Source of the DNA: a virus
Length of the DNA: 23,185 bases
Strand: one strand, 5' to 3'
IMG/VR virus record: IMGVR_UViG_3300037070_000562
Span: 1 to 23,185 of that record
A model generated the notes under the pieces. The model was not told the origin of the DNA, searched no databases, and saw only the letters and a program-made list of their open reading frames with translations. Positions 6,640-13,526 of this stretch are shown here, one piece after another (position 1 is the stretch's first letter; the number at the start of each line of letters is the position of its first letter). Both the position numbers and the translations under genes were made by a program.

Positions 6640-7803
6640 ATGGACCGTCATCAATCAACGGAGGCATTGAACAACGTGGATATGCGGAACATGGCTGAGA
6701 TCGTTGCCAGTGCCGTCAAGGAGTACGTGGCGCTCGCCGTTGCGGAGCTCTCCGGGCGCGTCGGGCAGATCGAGAAAGCACCGCCACCGGTCGAAGCCGC
6801 GGTGATCAAGGCGCTGATCGAGGCGGAAGTGCAGGAGACGACCTCGGAGATGCGTGGGCAGTGGGACGCACAATTGAATACCGCAATCGCGGCACTGCCC
6901 CCGCCGACGGATCTCGCGCCGCTCGCTGAAACGGTGGCGCACATCGAGCAAAGACTGAGCGAGGCCACCACGCTGCAGATCGCGGACATACCAGAAGACC
7001 TGAAGGCACGGGTGAAGATCGATTACCTGAATCTGCAGAACCTTCACGAGCGTGTGATGACCATGGAGGCAAAGCCGATGCCGGTCGAGGGACCGCCCGG
7101 CGAGCGCGGACTGCAGGGGGAGCGGGGTGAGAAGGGCGAACCGGGGGATGCTGGTCCGCCCGGCGAAGTCGGTCCTGCGGGCGAGAGCGGGGCTCCCGGC
7201 GAGCGCGGTGAGAAGGGTGCCGACGGTCTGCCGGGTGTGCCGGGTGAGCGGGGTCCGGACGGCCAAGACGGTCGGGATGCGGTCGCCCTTGAGATCCTCG
7301 ACGGGGTCGACGAGACCCGCCGCTATCCACGGGGCACGGTGGTGACCTTCCGCGGCGGGCTGATTCGGGCGTTCCGACGCAGCGATCCGCTCGCCCCCGG
7401 CGTGGAACTCGAGCGGGCCGGCTGGCATGTAATCCTGAACGGCATTGCCGAGATGGCCTCCGAAGTACAGAACGAGCGCGAGTTCGTCCAGCGCACCGTG
7501 TTTACCAACGGCGCGGTGAACGAGGTCCGCACCCGCATGGCGATCCCGCTCTATCGAGGCATCTGGAAAAAGGGCGTGGACTATCACGCTGGCGACAGCG
7601 TCACCTACGGCGGCTCCAGCTTCATTGCGCAGCGCGACACGGTCGATGAGGAACCAGAGGCCAGCGATGCCTGGCGGCTCGCCGTCAAGCGCGGGCGCGA
7701 TGGCAAGAATGGCAAGGACGGCAACAAGGGCGAGCCGGGCGTGCAAGGCGAGCGCGGCCGAGACCTCACACAACGCGACTACACGACAGGACGGCGATTC
7801 TGA
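6640..7803 (+). CDS. Collagen-like virion protein with carbohydrate-binding-like module
   Basis: 387 residues. The N-terminal 145 residues are helical and probably form a trimeric coiled coil. Then come 21 uninterrupted Gly-X-Y triplets at 151-213, rich in GER, GEK and GEP, and a folded region to about 300. [18 protein letters not shown]...GSSFIAQ...W block at about 305-347 resembles chitin-binding type 5/12 modules of phage proteins. Eight more triplets lie at 352-375. Collagen-like stretches in phages form rigid trimeric rods in fibres. The position between portal and connector suggests a head or neck fibre rather than a tail fibre. The start is uncertain: ATG 6640 has a weak leader, while ACGGAGG at 6658-6664 favours in-frame GTG 6676. 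Confidence 0.85.
7090..7278 (+). repeat. Collagen-like Gly-X-Y repeat, 21 triplets
   Basis: Codes for 21 consecutive Gly-X-Y triplets. Charged GER/GEK triplets are common; they are known to stabilise bacterial collagens that lack hydroxyproline. Confidence 0.92.
7693..7764 (+). repeat. Second collagen-like Gly-X-Y repeat, 8 triplets
   Basis: Codes for [24 protein letters not shown] near the C-terminus, separated from the first block by a folded region of about 140 residues. Confidence 0.88.
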
Positions 7804-8147
7804 TGGTCATGCTAGTCAGTCTGGATCAGGCGAAGTTGAGCCTGCGTCTCGATCACGATGCCGACAACGAGCGGGTCGAGGAAGAGATTCACGATGCCTC
7901 TGCGATCGTGCTCACGCACCTGAAGGACCGCGCGTTGCTGCTGGTCGACACCTCCGGTGAAATCCTCTCCGATTCCACCGGCACCATCGAGATTCCGCGC
8001 GACATCCAGCGCGCCACACTCGCGATGGTGAAGATCCTGCATGAGAGCAATGCGGGCGACGGGCAGCGGATGGGCTGGAACGAAGGGTTCCTGCCGGATG
8101 AAGTGCGCGCGTTGCTGTTTCCGCACCGGATGCCAACCGTCGCATGA
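7803..8147 (+). CDS. Head-tail connector protein (gp6-like)
   Basis: 114 residues. The mostly helical protein starts [19 protein letters not shown] and has the D..L...I..A...V pattern (NERVEEEIHDASAIVLTHL), then PRDIQRATLAMVKILHE. This is the usual shape of the gp6-like adaptor that binds below the portal and begins the neck. A short C-terminal LPDEVRALLFPHR tail ends it, as in homologues where the last residues fix the LL..YR motif. The start overlaps the collagen-like gene by one base (TGATG). A second in-frame ATG lies two codons in. Confidence comes from both pattern and position. Confidence 0.85.
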   Translation: MVMLVSLDQAKLSLRLDHDADNERVEEEIHDASAIVLTHLKDRALLLVDTSGEILSDSTGTIEIPRDIQRATLAMVKILHESNAGDGQRMGWNEGFLPDEVRALLFPHRMPTVA

Positions 8148-8512
8148 ACACCGCCAATATGGGCACGGGCGATCTCAACCGGGTGGTTGACATCGAAGAG
8201 AAGACGCTCGTGCAGAACACGATCACGGGAGCCAAGACTCCCACTTGGAGCGTATTGTGGAGCGACGTCCCGGCCAACATCGATTTTCGCACTGGAAAGG
8301 AGTACATCGCCGCACAGGCAGTCCAGTCCGAAATAACCTGCTTCATCACCATCCGCTACCGGGACGGATTACGGCCCGCACACCGCATCGTGCAAAAGGC
8401 AACGGAGCGGCGCAGCCGAAAAGTGTTCAATATCCGCGGCATCATCCCCGACTCCAAAAGCGGCCTCGAGTGGCTGACGATGCCGTGCTCCGAGGGCGTA
8501 GATCAGGGGTAA
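8144..8512 (+). CDS. Phage head-tail joining protein (head closure)
   Basis: 122 residues in the Phage_H_T_join/SPP1 gp16-like family. It forms the ring that closes the filled head and accepts the tail. Visible markers are LNRVVDIEEKTLVQN, W..LWSDVPANIDFRTGKEYIAA, the central I.IRYRDGLRPAHRI, and the C-terminal FNIRGIIPDSKSGLEWL, all typical of this beta-rich family. It starts by ATGA overlap with the connector gene. Its 3' end overlaps the most likely start of the next, unrelated gene by 28 bases. That junction marks the left edge of the five-gene insertion. Confidence 0.9.
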   Translation: MNTANMGTGDLNRVVDIEEKTLVQNTITGAKTPTWSVLWSDVPANIDFRTGKEYIAAQAVQSEITCFITIRYRDGLRPAHRIVQKATERRSRKVFNIRGIIPDSKSGLEWLTMPCSEGVDQG

Positions 8513-9147
8513 GCGCCACCGTCGCGCCGGAGTGGCGTGGCGAGACGGTGGCGATTCTCGCGGCGGGTCCCTCGCTTACCCGCGAGCAGGCAGAGCAGGT
8601 GCGCGGTCGCTGCCGGGTGATCGCGGTCAACAACACCGCGATCGACACGGAGGTAGACGGTGTCCTGCAACTGGCTTTTGCACCGTGGGCAGACGTGCTA
8701 TACGCGGCCGATGCGAAGTGGTGGCACTGCTACAAGGATCGTGCGCTGGCATTCGCAGGGCTCAAGTACACGATCTCGGCGATTCCGTTTCCTGAAGTAC
8801 TTCGGTTGCAGCGTTCGCACCAGAGAGCCTTCGATGAGCGCCCGACGCACCTCTGCGGATCGAACAGCGGCTACCACGCGCTGCACCTGGCGGTGCATTT
8901 CGGGGCGGCGCGCGTTCTGCTGCTCGGCTTCGATATGAAGAATGGCATCAACGGTCGGCGCCACTACTTCGGCAATCACCCAAAGCGATTGAATGCCCGG
9001 CCGGCGTTTCCGACGTGGATCAACCAGTTTGCGAAGCTCGCGCCGGAACTCGCCAAGCGGCGCATCGAGGTTGTGAACTGCAGCCCGAGCACGGCATTGT
9101 TTGCGTTCCGGCGGGCAAGTCTGACGACGGTACTAAATGCCCAATGA
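8485..9147 (+). CDS. DUF115/MptE-like protein, possible glycosyltransferase fold
   Basis: 220 residues from GTG 8485. It has a Rossmann-like layout: VAILAAGPSLT at 22-32 (GPS loop), VIAVNNTAI, ADVLYAADAKWW at 69-80, GSNSGYHALHLAV at 125-137, and ARVLLLGFDM at 142-151, then HYFGNHP. These are the marks of the DUF115/6-hydroxymethylpterin pyrophosphokinase MptE-like group, which shares its pattern with GT42 sialyltransferases (GPS near the start, SG..A..A...G...I.L.G.D later). Phage members are often annotated with no function. The start is unsettled: GTG 8485 has a poor ribosome binding site and overlaps the upstream gene, but the PEWRGETV lead-in argues against starting later. The substrate is unknown. 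Confidence 0.75.
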   Translation: MLRGRRSGVSATVAPEWRGETVAILAAGPSLTREQAEQVRGRCRVIAVNNTAIDTEVDGVLQLAFAPWADVLYAADAKWWHCYKDRALAFAGLKYTISAIPFPEVLRLQRSHQRAFDERPTHLCGSNSGYHALHLAVHFGAARVLLLGFDMKNGINGRRHYFGNHPKRLNARPAFPTWINQFAKLAPELAKRRIEVVNCSPSTALFAFRRASLTTVLNAQ

Positions 9148-9736
9148 CTTAGGACAGCGCGCCTCGCTCGCCTACCGCAACGCACGGGCTGAGATCGAGG
9201 CAGGGCAAGTGCCAGATAAGTATCGGCGTCTGCTGCCGTACATTCAGGGCCAGCGGGTGCTAGAGATCGGTGCGGCGGAAGGCGTGCTCGGACTGCTGCT
9301 GTCACGCGAGGGCCAAGTCGAGCGAGTGACGGCGCTCGAGCTGCGCGAAGACCGGCACCGGGAGGGTCAGCGCCTGCAGCGGGTCTGGGCGGAGCGCGGC
9401 TTCGATGTAAGCCGCTGCCTGATGGTACAGGGCGACATCCGCGAGCACCTGCACCTGCTCGAGGTCACCGATACGCTGGTGGCGGTGCGCTCGATCTATT
9501 ATCTGCGCGCGGAAGCACAGTCAGTTATGGAGGTGGCTGCGCGTCGGGTGCGTCGCGTGGTGTTGTGCGGCAACGCTGGCCGGCAAGCCCAGTACCGCTC
9601 GCAGCCGAGCAGTGAGCTCGGTCGGTTCAATTACCTGGCCGCCATCGATGGCATGAAATGGCTGTTGACGGGCGCGGGTTATCAGATCGCCGCGGTGATC
9701 AGTAGTGGCGATCCTATCGTGGTGGGCATCCAATGA
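9137..9736 (+). CDS. Class I SAM-dependent methyltransferase
   Basis: 199 residues. VLEIGAAEGVLGLLL (motif I) at 41-55 and the acidic strand end TALEL (E68) form the S-adenosylmethionine pocket, and VQGDI near 97-101 fits the adenine-contacting loop. VAVRSIYYL at 116-123 is a plausible motif IV region without the NPPY of amino-DNA methyltransferases, so DNA is not an obvious substrate. It resembles small-molecule or sugar methyltransferases more, but I cannot name the target. It starts 11 bases inside the upstream gene and is followed by an ATGA overlap, so all five genes of this cassette look co-translated. Confidence 0.8.
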   Translation: MPNDLGQRASLAYRNARAEIEAGQVPDKYRRLLPYIQGQRVLEIGAAEGVLGLLLSREGQVERVTALELREDRHREGQRLQRVWAERGFDVSRCLMVQGDIREHLHLLEVTDTLVAVRSIYYLRAEAQSVMEVAARRVRRVVLCGNAGRQAQYRSQPSSELGRFNYLAAIDGMKWLLTGAGYQIAAVISSGDPIVVGIQ

Positions 9737-11097
9737 CGGTCGTCTTGCGAGTCTCGCCGCAGGACGTGACGCACAAGCTCTCGTGCGATCTCTTTGAGAC
9801 CGAGGCGGCGGAGTGGGGCGATAAGACCTACATGCCGATCGAGCAGACGATCAAGCACCGCTCGATCGTCGCTCGTTACGTCGAGGGGCGCGCGTGGGAG
9901 GAGACGGAACTGTTCACCAACATCTACACGCGCCGCTTCGCGGCCGGCGAGCATGTGCGCGGCTGCTCGACGATGGCGGGATTGCTGCAGCAGTACCGCA
10001 CACGGGTCGATCACATGTACGCCGACATGCAGAAGCACGGGTATCGCGACGACGCCGATGACCTGATCCCGGTGGTGATCGCACCCGACGGGACGCTCAC
10101 GCTTGGCAACCAGGGCAACCACCGGCTCGCCATTGCCAAGGTGCTCAACATCCCGAAAATCGCCGTCAGGGTGTGCGGCCGACTCGACTCAATCCGCTGC
10201 CCGGTGGAACCGGCGACGTTCCAACCGGTGCTGCACGACGGAGCACGGGAGATCCCGGCGATGACCACGCCGGCCGAGCGGGTGGCGTACTACGAACTGG
10301 CGAAAGCGCAGGCGGCGCTCGGCGCGGTCGTCGAACTCGGCACTTGGCTCGGGGCGGCGACGGTGTTCATGGCGGCCGGTGTGCGTGATGCGGACACTCG
10401 CCGCCCAATGCACTCCTACGACCGCTTCAAGTGGAAGCCGATCCATGAGTACAAGGCGGGGCATCCGCTGCGCTGCTCGATGATCGAGCAGGTGAAGCGC
10501 AACTTGGGTCCGCTCGCCGCGCTGGTGCAGCTGCACAAGATCGAGATCACCGACGCGAAGTGGCTGGGCGGGCCGATCGGGCTGCTGGTGGCGGACGGAC
10601 CGAAGCACGCGGGAGACGTGGTGCGCACGCTCGGGATCTTCGGACCCGAGCTTGTCGTCGGCAGTTGTACGGCGTGGCAGGATTTTGCGTACTTCCCGGC
10701 TTACGAGCTGCCGGTGTGCTTTGAGCGACTCGAGCAGGCGGGCGTGGTGTCATTTGTGCGCGGCGTGTTTCCCGGCACCACTGCTGTGTTGCGCATTGAG
10801 AAACACATCAGTCGCAAGCTCGCACACTCCATCAAGGTGAGTGACATCAAGACGACCGAGATCCTGCCGATCTGGGAAAAGTGGAGCGCGCGGCTGCCCG
10901 AGGAGATGCGCCCGCGGTTCATGTGTGGAGCGGCGCTCTTTCTGCACGACCGTGGCGAGCAGGCGCAGGCGGCCGCACTCTTCAAGGCGCTGCTCGCGGA
11001 GTACACCGAGGACATCGCATCGAAGTGGGAATACTTCAAGAACAAGAAACCGGAGATGCTGCGGCGCTATCCGGCCATCGCGGCCGAATTGTCATGA
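9733..11097 (+). CDS. ParB-like domain fused to TylF-like methyltransferase
   Basis: 454 residues. The N-terminal part (about 50-150) runs WEETELFTN..., then IPVVIAPDGTLTLGNQGNHRLAIAKVLNIPKIAVRV, with GNQGNHRLAIA at 125-135 matching the G.HR.AIA core of ParB/sulfiredoxin-like folds. From about 180 a class I methyltransferase follows: VVELGTWLGAATVFMAAG at 199-216, SYDRFKW with D230, and LLVADGPKHAGDV at 284-296, close to the TylF/CmcI and Methyltransf_24 sugar-methyltransferase pattern. The last 80 residues are helical, ending in a possible TPR-like pair (AALFLHDRGEQAQAAALFKAL). ParB-like domains of this WE...lf type also occur in surface-polysaccharide clusters, which fits a glycan role better than plasmid partition. 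It starts by ATGA overlap. Confidence 0.72.
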   Translation: MTVVLRVSPQDVTHKLSCDLFETEAAEWGDKTYMPIEQTIKHRSIVARYVEGRAWEETELFTNIYTRRFAAGEHVRGCSTMAGLLQQYRTRVDHMYADMQKHGYRDDADDLIPVVIAPDGTLTLGNQGNHRLAIAKVLNIPKIAVRVCGRLDSIRCPVEPATFQPVLHDGAREIPAMTTPAERVAYYELAKAQAALGAVVELGTWLGAATVFMAAGVRDADTRRPMHSYDRFKWKPIHEYKAGHPLRCSMIEQVKRNLGPLAALVQLHKIEITDAKWLGGPIGLLVADGPKHAGDVVRTLGIFGPELVVGSCTAWQDFAYFPAYELPVCFERLEQAGVVSFVRGVFPGTTAVLRIEKHISRKLAHSIKVSDIKTTEILPIWEKWSARLPEEMRPRFMCGAALFLHDRGEQAQAAALFKALLAEYTEDIASKWEYFKNKKPEMLRRYPAIAAELS

Positions 11098-11834
11098 TGC
11101 TCACCCCGGAGGAACTGGCCGAGCTGCCGCCGAAGGCGAGGCGTGACTTGGAGATCGTCGATCTCTATCTCGAGCACGACTACCTCACCGCGTATGCGCT
11201 GCACACCGCGCAACGGATTGTGCATGAAGGGTACGAGGCCGCGGCAGGGGCGGATGCGAGCCGTGACAACTGGGACAGCCACGGCAACCTGCAGCGGGAT
11301 TTCCTGCTCAACATGGGGCTGCAGCCGCACCACCGGCTGCTCGAGGTCGGCTGTGGGGCGGGACGGCTTGCACGCAAGATCGTGCCGTACCTCGGACGCG
11401 GGCAGTATCACGGCGTCGACCTTTCGGAGGCGGCTGTTGAATCAGCCATTGAATTGTCGGTCAGCGAAGGCTGGAGTCACCACGATCCGCAGTTCTATGT
11501 CGGGCAGGTCGCGGATCTCCGGGCCGGCTCTTTCCAATTCGCTTGGGCGCACTCGGTTACCACGCATTTACCACCGACACTGATCACAAATCTCTTTTCC
11601 CAGGTGGCAGCCGCGATGGTCGGCAATGGGGTCTTCTACTGGACGTACCTGCCCGCGGAGCGTGACGAGCGATACGGGCTGACGCAGTTCCGTACCACGG
11701 TGGCGACGCTGCGCAGGTGCGCCGAGGATGCGGGGCTCACCTTTGACGAGGTGCCCGACTGGGTGCGGCTTGCTGGCTACAAGCCCGGTCGCTGGAGCTA
11801 CGGGCAAAGCATTGCGGTGAGCCGGCGTGCATAA
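11094..11834 (+). CDS. Class I SAM-dependent methyltransferase
   Basis: 246 residues from ATG 11094 (a second ATG follows directly). Motif I is LLEVGCGAGRLARKI at 82-96 and the ribose-binding acid lies in YHGVDLS (D109). A conserved FAWAHSVTTHLP at 149-160 fits the motif IV region of Methyltransf_11/25 types, followed by NGVFYWTYLP. The N-terminal 60 residues are helical and may cap the active site. No DNA-methyltransferase NPPY/DPPY motif is present, so a small molecule or sugar is the more likely acceptor. The start overlaps the ParB-methyltransferase stop by four bases, and its 3' end overlaps the glycosyltransferase by eight. Confidence 0.85.
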   Translation: MMLTPEELAELPPKARRDLEIVDLYLEHDYLTAYALHTAQRIVHEGYEAAAGADASRDNWDSHGNLQRDFLLNMGLQPHHRLLEVGCGAGRLARKIVPYLGRGQYHGVDLSEAAVESAIELSVSEGWSHHDPQFYVGQVADLRAGSFQFAWAHSVTTHLPPTLITNLFSQVAAAMVGNGVFYWTYLPAERDERYGLTQFRTTVATLRRCAEDAGLTFDEVPDWVRLAGYKPGRWSYGQSIAVSRRA

Positions 11835-12573
11835 GCTGACGGTCGCGTGCTGGAAGTGGCGTTCTGCGCCCGGCTATCGCTCGACCTTCACCGCGCAGCA
11901 TGTCAACACGCTGCGCAGCATGGTGGCGCGGCATTACGCGAAGCCGCACGATTTTGTCTGTATCACGGATGATCCGGCCGGCATCGACGGGGATGTCCGG
12001 ATCGTTCCAATCTGGGACGACCACAAGAATCTCCGCGGGCCGAATGGGGTCAACTGCTATCGTCGTTTGAAGGCGTTCTCGGTGGAAGCAGCGGATCTCA
12101 TCGGCCCACGGTTCGTCTCACTGGATCTGGATGCGGTCGTCACGGACGATCTGACACCACTGTGGGACCGGCCGGAAGAGTTCGTCATCTGGGGCGATAC
12201 CGCGCGCGGCACGCCGTACAACGGCAGCATGTTCCTGCTGACCGCAGGCACGCGCACGCGCGTCTGGGAGACGTTCGATCCGCAGAAGTCGCCGGCCGCC
12301 GCCAAAGCGCGCGGCTACATCGGCAGCGACCAAGCGTGGATCGGCGCGTGTCTCGGTCCGCACGAGCGCAAGTGGTCGATACTCGACGGCGTGTATTCGT
12401 ACCGGGTACACATTGCGCAGGAACTGAGGAACTCACGCTTTGAGCGACCGCCGCCGGGTCGTCCGCACATCCTGCCCGGCAACGCGCGCATTGTCCTCTT
12501 TCATGGCCGGCACGACCCGTGGCATCCGCAAGTCCAGAAATTGAATCCGTGGATTACGGACCATTGGAGATAA
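11827..12573 (+). CDS. Glycosyltransferase-like protein (GT-A type, DxD motif)
   Basis: 248 residues starting at GTG 11827. VACWKW and FVCITDD at the N-terminus, FVSLDLDAVVTDDL with the DLD metal/nucleotide motif at 100-102, YNGSMFLL at 131-138, IGSDQAW at 165-171 and a late VLFHGRHDPW at 223-232 follow the order seen in GT8-like transferases (donor pocket, DxD, acceptor loop, final metal-binding His). It should move a sugar from a nucleotide donor, but donor and acceptor cannot be read from sequence. It closes the five-gene cassette; the next gene returns to tail morphogenesis six bases later. Confidence 0.85.
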   Translation: MHKLTVACWKWRSAPGYRSTFTAQHVNTLRSMVARHYAKPHDFVCITDDPAGIDGDVRIVPIWDDHKNLRGPNGVNCYRRLKAFSVEAADLIGPRFVSLDLDAVVTDDLTPLWDRPEEFVIWGDTARGTPYNGSMFLLTAGTRTRVWETFDPQKSPAAAKARGYIGSDQAWIGACLGPHERKWSILDGVYSYRVHIAQELRNSRFERPPPGRPHILPGNARIVLFHGRHDPWHPQVQKLNPWITDHWR

Positions 12574-12579
12574 GCACTA

Positions 12580-13140
12580 ATGGCTAAGGTTTCCTTTGAG
12601 GTCGAGATGAAGCAGAGCGGATTGCCGCAGCTCATCAATACGCTCAAGGACTTCCCCGACCGTTTCCAGCAGAAGATCGTGCGGCGTGCCGCACGCCGAG
12701 GCATGAACATCGTCCGCGACGCGGCCCGAACGAAAGCGAAAGCGATCGACGATCCGGCCACGCCGAAGCGGAAAATCTTCAAGAACATCGTCACCAACGA
12801 ATCGGCGCGGCGCGGTCGCGCCATTGGCGGCATCGTGATGAAGGTCGGTGTGCGCGGTGGCGCACTCGCCTATCCATTGATGACCCACGGGCGCGGTGCG
12901 CCGTTTCAGCCACGCCGCAAGCCGCGGGCGAGCGCGAAACCGCCGTCGCCGCATCCCGGTGGCGACACCCGCTACTGGCGGCACCAGGAATTCGGCTGGC
13001 GGCATGTGGGCGGAAAGCACGTCGTCGGACGCAAGTTCATGCTGCAGGCACTGATTGAGAACTCGCAAAAGGTTGCCGACAAGATCGTCCAAGAGATCAA
13101 CATCGGGCTCGACACGCTTTTCAAGGGAGGCCCGCCATGA
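12580..13140 (+). CDS. HK97 gp10-like neck/tail protein
   Basis: 186 residues. The pattern MAKVSFEVEM...GLPQLINTLKDFPDRFQQKIVRRAARRGMNIV is typical of the HK97 gp10 family, small neck or tail-completion proteins that work between the head-tail joining protein and the tail terminator. The C-terminal GRKFMLQALIENSQKVADKIV helix fits the family's F..PA....... end. The middle (about 105-130) is a basic Pro-rich loop (PRRKPRASAKPPSPHPGG), which makes it longer than many relatives. GGAG at 12566-12569 gives a 10-base spacer to ATG 12580. It is followed by an ATGA overlap. Confidence 0.86.
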   Translation: MAKVSFEVEMKQSGLPQLINTLKDFPDRFQQKIVRRAARRGMNIVRDAARTKAKAIDDPATPKRKIFKNIVTNESARRGRAIGGIVMKVGVRGGALAYPLMTHGRGAPFQPRRKPRASAKPPSPHPGGDTRYWRHQEFGWRHVGGKHVVGRKFMLQALIENSQKVADKIVQEINIGLDTLFKGGPP

Positions 13141-13526
13141 TTGGCGTACCGCCGATCTACGAACTCTGCGATGTCGACACGGGTGTGCAAGCCGTGCTGG
13201 GCGGTCCTGATGGCCTGCGCGTGTATCCATTCGGGCATGTGCCGCAGGACAACCCGCCCGAGCCGCGACCGTATGCTGTGTGGCGACGGACGTATGGGGC
13301 ACCCGAGAACACGCTTGGCTGCCCGCCCGATATGGATTACGTCGGCATCGAGGTAATCTGTGTCGGCGATCCGGACACCTGCCGGGAGGCGCACGATGCG
13401 ATCATTCTGGCGATCGAAAGTCACTGTCATGTGGTCGGCCTTGATGACGAGGGGCGCGATCCGGACACGGATGATTACTGGTGTTCGTTCACGGCCGACT
13501 GGTTTGTATCGCGCAACGGAACATGA
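13137..13526 (+). CDS. Probable tail terminator/completion protein (DUF3168-like)
   Basis: 129 residues. The sequence starts PPIYELCDVDTGVQAVLG, then RVYPFGHVPQDNPPEPRPYAVWRRT, the usual I...L..d..v..ll......riyp...pq....PyvvY pattern of DUF3168/gp17-like tail completion proteins. A central V.CVGD...C.E...AI..AIE resembles the helix that packs onto the tube end. This ring caps the tail tube and docks it to the head. It lies between the gp10-like and tail tube genes, the standard place, and starts by ATGA overlap. The cysteine count (5) is unusual for the family. Confidence 0.8.
   Translation: MIGVPPIYELCDVDTGVQAVLGGPDGLRVYPFGHVPQDNPPEPRPYAVWRRTYGAPENTLGCPPDMDYVGIEVICVGDPDTCREAHDAIILAIESHCHVVGLDDEGRDPDTDDYWCSFTADWFVSRNGT

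Follow-up and report, generated by a model that had tools for sequence, protein, structure and literature searches.

In a 23,185-nucleotide (nt) stretch of viral DNA, IMG/VR record IMGVR_UViG_3300037070_000562 (positions 1–23,185, hereafter the window), five genes, P1–P5, lie between two neck genes of a siphovirus virion operon (island, 8485–12573). We read them as a neck glycan-decoration island, the products of which would decorate a virion protein with a methylated glycan, and put the probability of this reading at about 0.6. It is directly supported by the gene order, the enzyme classes, the purifying selection that acts on all five genes, and the recurrent replacement of the island genes, at the same place in other phages, by enzymes that are unrelated to them but belong to the same classes.

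The five overlapping open reading frames (ORFs) are co-directional and occupy the interval between the genes of the head closure protein Hc1, a head completion protein (8144–8512, + strand; phrog_25, 4e-25; PF05521, 2e-18), and of the gp10-like Neck1, a tail completion protein (12580–13140, +; phrog_5, 2e-16). Successive overlaps are 28 (Hc1/P1), 11 (P1/P2), 4 (P2/P3), 4 (P3/P4) and 8 nt (P4/P5), and a 6-nt gap separates the end of P5 from the gp10-like gene; P1 (8485) and P5 (11827) start with GTG. Inside the island no promoter or terminator that would uncouple it was found above chance, and a search for repeats marking an insertion boundary returned weak, chance-like matches only. The G+C content of the island (~63–65%) is near that of its flanks. 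A first-pass annotation of the window had described this cassette, its single direction, its overlaps of 4–28 nt and its place in the virion operon, all of which were confirmed. Measured against a relative (locus L003), the ratio of nonsynonymous to synonymous substitution rates (dN/dS) is 0.27 for P1, 0.26 for P2, 0.29 for P3, 0.23 for P4 and 0.16 for P5; therefore, all five genes are maintained by selection. The window equals, with five mismatches (four of them at the ends), the first 23,185 nt of a longer IMG/VR contig, IMGVR_UViG_3300037071_002299 (58,968 nt), which we call the source contig.

The case for glycosyl and methyl transfer is strongest for P5 and P3. P5 (11827–12573, +; phrog_1962, 3.5e-15) is, to judge from its sequence, a GT8-like glycosyltransferase of the GT-A fold, a fold already named in the first-pass annotation. 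Its DxD metal-binding motif (D100-L101-D102) is invariant among 25 homologues, in which the C-terminal HG and DPW are also near-invariant. Its profile is similar to those of the solved GT8/GT77 enzymes AgtA (6mw5, E = 3.8e-4), LgtC (0.012) and glycogenin (0.04), and Pfam returned no match for it. Homologues of P5 also occur in bacterial contigs, where at least two are clearly surrounded by phage head genes.

P3 (9733–11097, +) opens with an N-terminal domain that carries a GNxGNHR motif, continues with a Methyltransf_24 sugar O-methyltransferase domain (PF13578, 3.4e-6, over the cut-off) and ends in a helical C-terminus. The best solved neighbours of its AlphaFold2 (AF2) model (predicted local distance difference test, pLDDT, 88) in a Foldseek search are the sugar O-methyltransferases SpnH, MycF, MeT1 and NovP (E = 5e-7 to 1e-5). 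The methyltransferase half of the model thus matches the fold of antibiotic-sugar O-methyltransferases, and activity on a sugar hydroxyl is predicted. Residues D288 and D317 are invariant across 7 homologues and may be the equivalents of the metal ligands of MycF and NovP. The N-terminal domain had been labeled ParB-like, which did not hold: when genuine ParB domains taken from four genomes were compared with it by hhalign, the probability was 3%, and there is no Pfam match, although the GNxGNHR motif aligns in register with ParB domains despite the non-significant profile score. In the genome of a Bradyrhizobium contig (L166–L168), a DPPY motif of the DNA-methylase kind comes after ParB N-terminal domains in one reading frame; P3 is arranged otherwise. 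A pattern search of 84,980 species genomes confirmed no relative of P3. The tRNA-Gly(ccc) called by ARAGORN inside P3 (10191–10283, −) is probably spurious, as nothing was found there at Rfam gathering thresholds.

The other two methyltransferases of the first-pass annotation stand. P2 (9137–9736, +) is a small class I S-adenosylmethionine (SAM) methyltransferase, recognized by its motif VLEIGAAEGVL, which is kept in 7 homologues, and by a profile match to the O-methyltransferase 2gpy (E = 9e-4); its match to PF13649 (0.003) is below the cut-off. In every P3 locus found, P2 is the adjacent gene directly upstream of P3. P4 (11094–11834, +) is a class I SAM methyltransferase (Methyltransf_12/25; PF08242, 1.7e-11, above the cut-off) and a variable member of the cassette, missing from several relatives. 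A match of P2 and P4 to the PADLOC defence model ‘mad2’ was rejected, since no more than the methyltransferase domain of that larger model is covered. Domains of the P3 type align structurally inside larger viral proteins annotated as GT2 and MptE-like, which suggests that these proteins are fusions; the alignments are consistent with a pathway shared by such enzymes.

P1 (8485–9147, +; PHROG_4603) is a DUF115/MptE-like protein and the anchor gene of the neck islands. The family assignment was upheld by a strong full-length profile match to phrog_4603 (1.3e-39, residues 26–219), whereas the match to PF01973 (MptE-like/DUF115; 4.6e-5) reaches 23.7 bits and stays under the Pfam gathering cut-off of 34.6 bits. 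The best PDB fold for the AF2 model of P1 (pLDDT 90) is the HPPK/MptE structure 8sd5 (probability 0.99, TM 0.45, E = 4e-3). A human sialyltransferase is a weaker fold match than this MptE-type enzyme, GT42 sialyltransferases are absent from the top 50 fold matches, and profile comparison with them gave no significant match (chains of the CstI/CstII type, E 0.1 or worse). Because the GT42 matches are not significant and the fold is nearest MptE, the label ‘alpha-2,3-sialyltransferase’ of PHROG_4603, which is an annotation only, is a superfamily assignment and not an activity; the literature that we found holds no biochemical support for this label in the DUF115/PHROG_4603 family. P1 may be a glycosyltransferase, though its modeled fold is nearest MptE. 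Four loci (L004:14983–15645, L025, L148 and L156) carry a further P1 homologue close to the tail-tip genes and well away from the neck.

At least 565 stretches in IMG/VR encode relatives of P1. Head or tail genes are present in 99 of the 103 P1 loci examined, and P1 is no more than 500 nt from such a gene in 73 of them; some of these loci were reached via other island proteins and the 103 are, therefore, not a fully random sample. In 54 bracketed loci, P1 has head genes to one side and neck or tail genes to the opposite side; 38 of these contain recognized glycosyl- or methyltransferases. A few loci appear to hold P1 without recognized cargo, some of these being cut by contig ends. A Pfam scan of 84 unassigned island ORFs gave matches to Methyltransf_24 (8), GT2 (7), other methyltransferases, GT9 and GT1-like enzymes, and also to hexapeptide transferases, sulfotransferases, radical SAM/B12 enzymes and 2-oxoglutarate-Fe (2OG-Fe) oxygenases. 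Among the cargo clusters that recur, two consist of GT2 and GT-D+methyltransferase fusions and another of FkbM. As a control, 41 unassigned late ORFs that these phages carry elsewhere than in the islands gave no glycosyltransferase match and one methyltransferase match. Unrelated enzymes of the same chemical classes replace one another at the neck, and the class of function that we assign to the island is supported by the glycosyl- and methyltransferases, not homologous to those of the window, that relatives have at this position. Larger neck islands were seen in seven loci (L098, L105, L111, L131, L136, L145 and L152), with radical SAM/B12 confirmed in L136.

A separate sample comprised relatives chosen by portal similarity, irrespective of island content, with 38 loci spanning the whole neck. 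The neck is empty in 23 of these and holds recognized island enzymes in 12, P1 being present in 11 of the 12. Within this sample all five genes occur together in the window only, and with 23 of 38 necks empty the set is not one shared by nearly all relatives. Published phages show both states: the Ad1, Hc1 and gp10-like genes are packed with no island in FSL SP-016, PPompW_132418, RHph_X2_26, SOVA965 and Mcat3, and the neck regions of D3, PAJU2 and Psp6 include both a methyltransferase and a homologue of P1. Our literature searches found no paper on islands of this kind in D3-like phages.

We propose that, late in infection, P5 would move sugars from host-made nucleotide sugars to a cytoplasmic acceptor, possibly with P1 as a second transferase, Maf- or sialyltransferase-like, and that P3, together with P2 and P4, would O-methylate the glycan. 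The acceptor would most likely be one of the phage's own virion proteins, modified before or during assembly, and the released particle would thus bear a methylated glycan. A cytoplasmic acceptor seems natural because a simple hydropathy scan detected no transmembrane-like segment in the five proteins (maximum 19-residue mean 1.54), unlike the membrane-bound Gtr system. Since these apparently soluble enzymes are encoded in the virion operon, action on virion proteins would be the best explanation. Late co-expression, the order of the reactions, the identity of the sugar and the virion as acceptor are the parts of this scheme that we infer.

Several observations weigh against decoration of the virion. 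The fold nearest to P1 is that of an archaeal pterin pyrophosphokinase of the MptE family and not of a glycosyltransferase, and the neck may simply be a place where insertions are tolerated. Reading through the rest of the 59-kb source contig, where profile searches covered three base-modification families only, revealed no recognizable sugar-nucleotide gene; therefore, a donor supplied by the host would be needed. Enrichment of Ser/Thr at the C-termini of capsid and tail tube, as in acceptors of the mycobacteriophage type, was considered and rejected, as these C-termini look alike by eye with or without an island. The collagen-like protein, likewise, shows no association with islands. This portal-associated protein (6640–7803, +; PF01391, 2e-14) has 21 Gly-X-Y repeats and a CBM5/12-like C-terminal stretch (PF02839, 7e-5, under the Pfam cut-off). 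In the portal sample of 38 the number of Gly-X-Y repeats shows no difference between loci that have an island and loci that lack one (Mann-Whitney p = 0.95). Several islands belong to phages devoid of a collagen-like gene, and the gene is present in four of the five published phages with an empty neck. The protein is, thus, a candidate acceptor with no specific tie to the island, and the suggestion that it is the specific target was not borne out. Among its homologues, the collagen runs span 0 to 76 triplets. Overall, the observation made in the first-pass annotation was confirmed and its interpretation, a system that builds or attaches a methylated sugar, is partly supported: the chemistry of glycosyl and methyl transfer stands, most strongly for P5 and P3, as do the place in the virion operon and the class of function; the specific tie to the collagen-like protein and the ParB-like label do not.

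The alternative that survives best concerns P1, which, as a protein of MptE-like fold, could act as an enzyme on pterins or nucleotides or else be a structural component of the neck, while the remainder of the island acts as we propose. We regard this as possible, if doubtful. It would account for the best fold match being an MptE-type HPPK and for the few loci that seemingly hold P1 without recognized cargo, but P1 accompanies glycosyl- or methyltransferases in most of the bracketed loci, an MptE-like phage protein aligns by structure with a P3-type methyltransferase domain, and the PHROG annotation (as an annotation only) points to a sialyltransferase.

Modification of the host surface is a rather unlikely reading. 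Here, the enzymes would act in the cytoplasm on a precursor of lipopolysaccharide, capsule or O-antigen, either at a late stage of infection or during lysogeny, blocking superinfection or the rebinding of virions to debris. O-antigen and capsule clusters hold the same enzyme classes as the islands (FkbM, GT2, GT9 and sulfotransferase cargo), phage-encoded glycosyltransferases are known to change host serotype (cited in PMC12619734), and the P5 homologues in bacterial contigs would fit as well. However, the five proteins are devoid of transmembrane-like segments, the Gtr pairing of a membrane flippase with a polytopic glycosyltransferase is missing, no Gtr-type flippase-like neighbour was seen, and the genes are embedded by their overlaps in a virion operon, outside any lysogeny region.

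We consider it quite improbable that the neck interval simply tolerates insertions and gathers metabolic or moron genes with no shared purpose. The contents vary widely among relatives and most necks in the portal sample are empty, as this would predict, yet the contents are confined to decoration chemistry when compared with other late ORFs, P1 is nearly constant where island enzymes are recognized, P2 and P3 are always side by side, and all five genes are under purifying selection. Least probable of all is hypermodification of DNA, in which modified bases of the phage DNA would carry the glycan and so evade restriction: virus-encoded DNA glycosyltransferases provide a precedent (Pyle 2024, as cited in PMC12619734), but a thymidylate-synthase-like (hydroxymethylase) gene was found in none of eight contigs (source contig and seven relatives, possibly incomplete; the control worked), a cytosine methylase over the cut-off in none of the same contigs (control again positive), and a [DNS]PP[YFW] motif in none of the five island proteins, in accord with the absence of NPPY-type motifs noted at first. 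A Tet/JBP search gave no match, its positive control being likewise silent.

The rest of the window is an operon for an HK97/lambda-type head and a siphovirus tail. Small and large terminase, a fused protease-capsid, portal, the collagen-like protein, Ad1 and Hc1 precede the island; the gp10-like Neck1, the tail terminator (13137–13526, downstream of the gp10-like gene), tail tube, tape measure and tail-tip genes with NlpC/P60 follow it. A search with the gp10-like protein recovered the source contig alone. A proline/glycine-rich ORF of 192 residues (2248–2826) in the terminase-capsid interval is unmatched in Pfam, and its codon score is negative. Beyond the window, the source contig contains two long glycine-rich ORFs past the tail-tip genes (~25.5–28.1 kb; L051–L053).

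Phage-encoded glycan decoration within a virion operon is already known, and the main interest of these islands is their widespread, modular pattern. As far as our literature search reached, virion glycosylation by phage-encoded enzymes has been demonstrated in mycobacteriophages only. We tentatively suggest that P1 might be the protein-linked, initiating O-glycosyltransferase of a widespread siphovirus virion-glycosylation system outside the mycobacteriophages, fixed in the neck, around which modular GT8-like, GT2, GT-D, GT9, methyl-, sulfo- and acetyltransferases would be exchanged in the manner of capsule loci, varying the surface glycan. In diverse siphoviruses, among them the well-studied laboratory phages D3 and PAJU2, the islands form part of the virion operon, with chemistry of the methylation, sulfation and acetylation type, and they offer a direct assay for the DUF115/PHROG_4603 family. 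If virions are decorated, such variable glycan coats would bear on adsorption, particle stability, protist grazing and immune recognition in therapy.

Comparisons with characterized systems place the island by fold, by enzyme class and by position. P1 is nearest in fold to the superfamily of MptE (an archaeal 6-hydroxymethylpterin diphosphokinase), Maf and GT42, with weak profile similarity and no significant sequence match to any characterized member. The methyltransferase domain of P3 has its fold in common with the sugar O-methyltransferases TylF, MycF, SpnH and NovP, at ~15–23% identity, but sits in a three-part phage protein. Phage Corndog (cluster O) carries an O-methyltransferase and glycosyltransferases in its portal-protease interval, and these are produced in the course of infection (PMC4351075); it later appeared among the mycobacteriophages for which glycosylation of virion proteins was reported (Freeman 2023, as cited in PMC12363180 and PMC12619734). 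Like systems of the Corndog/Che8 type, the window encodes a glycosyltransferase (P5) and carries its enzymes within the virion structural operon; Corndog combines an O-methyltransferase with several glycosyltransferases there. The Corndog cassette is at the portal-protease position in a phage of another host phylum, and the likeness is one of enzyme class and of a place within the virion operon. Tetraselmis viridis virus S20 encodes a P5 homologue (50% identical) in a larger island with two DUF115 homologues, GT-D and FkbM-type enzymes; unlike the window, it has no P2–P3 pair, and its island is upstream of Hc1, between capsid and Hc1. The closest parallels in arrangement are the Pseudomonas phages D3 (orf7, orf12 and orf13) and PAJU2 (gp10–gp12). 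Their head-tail connector regions, like that of the window, hold a DUF115/PHROG_4603 protein and a methyltransferase, together with a third protein (phrog_6804, unmatched in Pfam), but neither a P5-type GT8-like enzyme nor the P3 fusion. In D3 the island genes are split to both sides of the connectors, whereas in PAJU2 the DUF115 island lies exactly between Hc1 and the gp10-like gene, as in the window.

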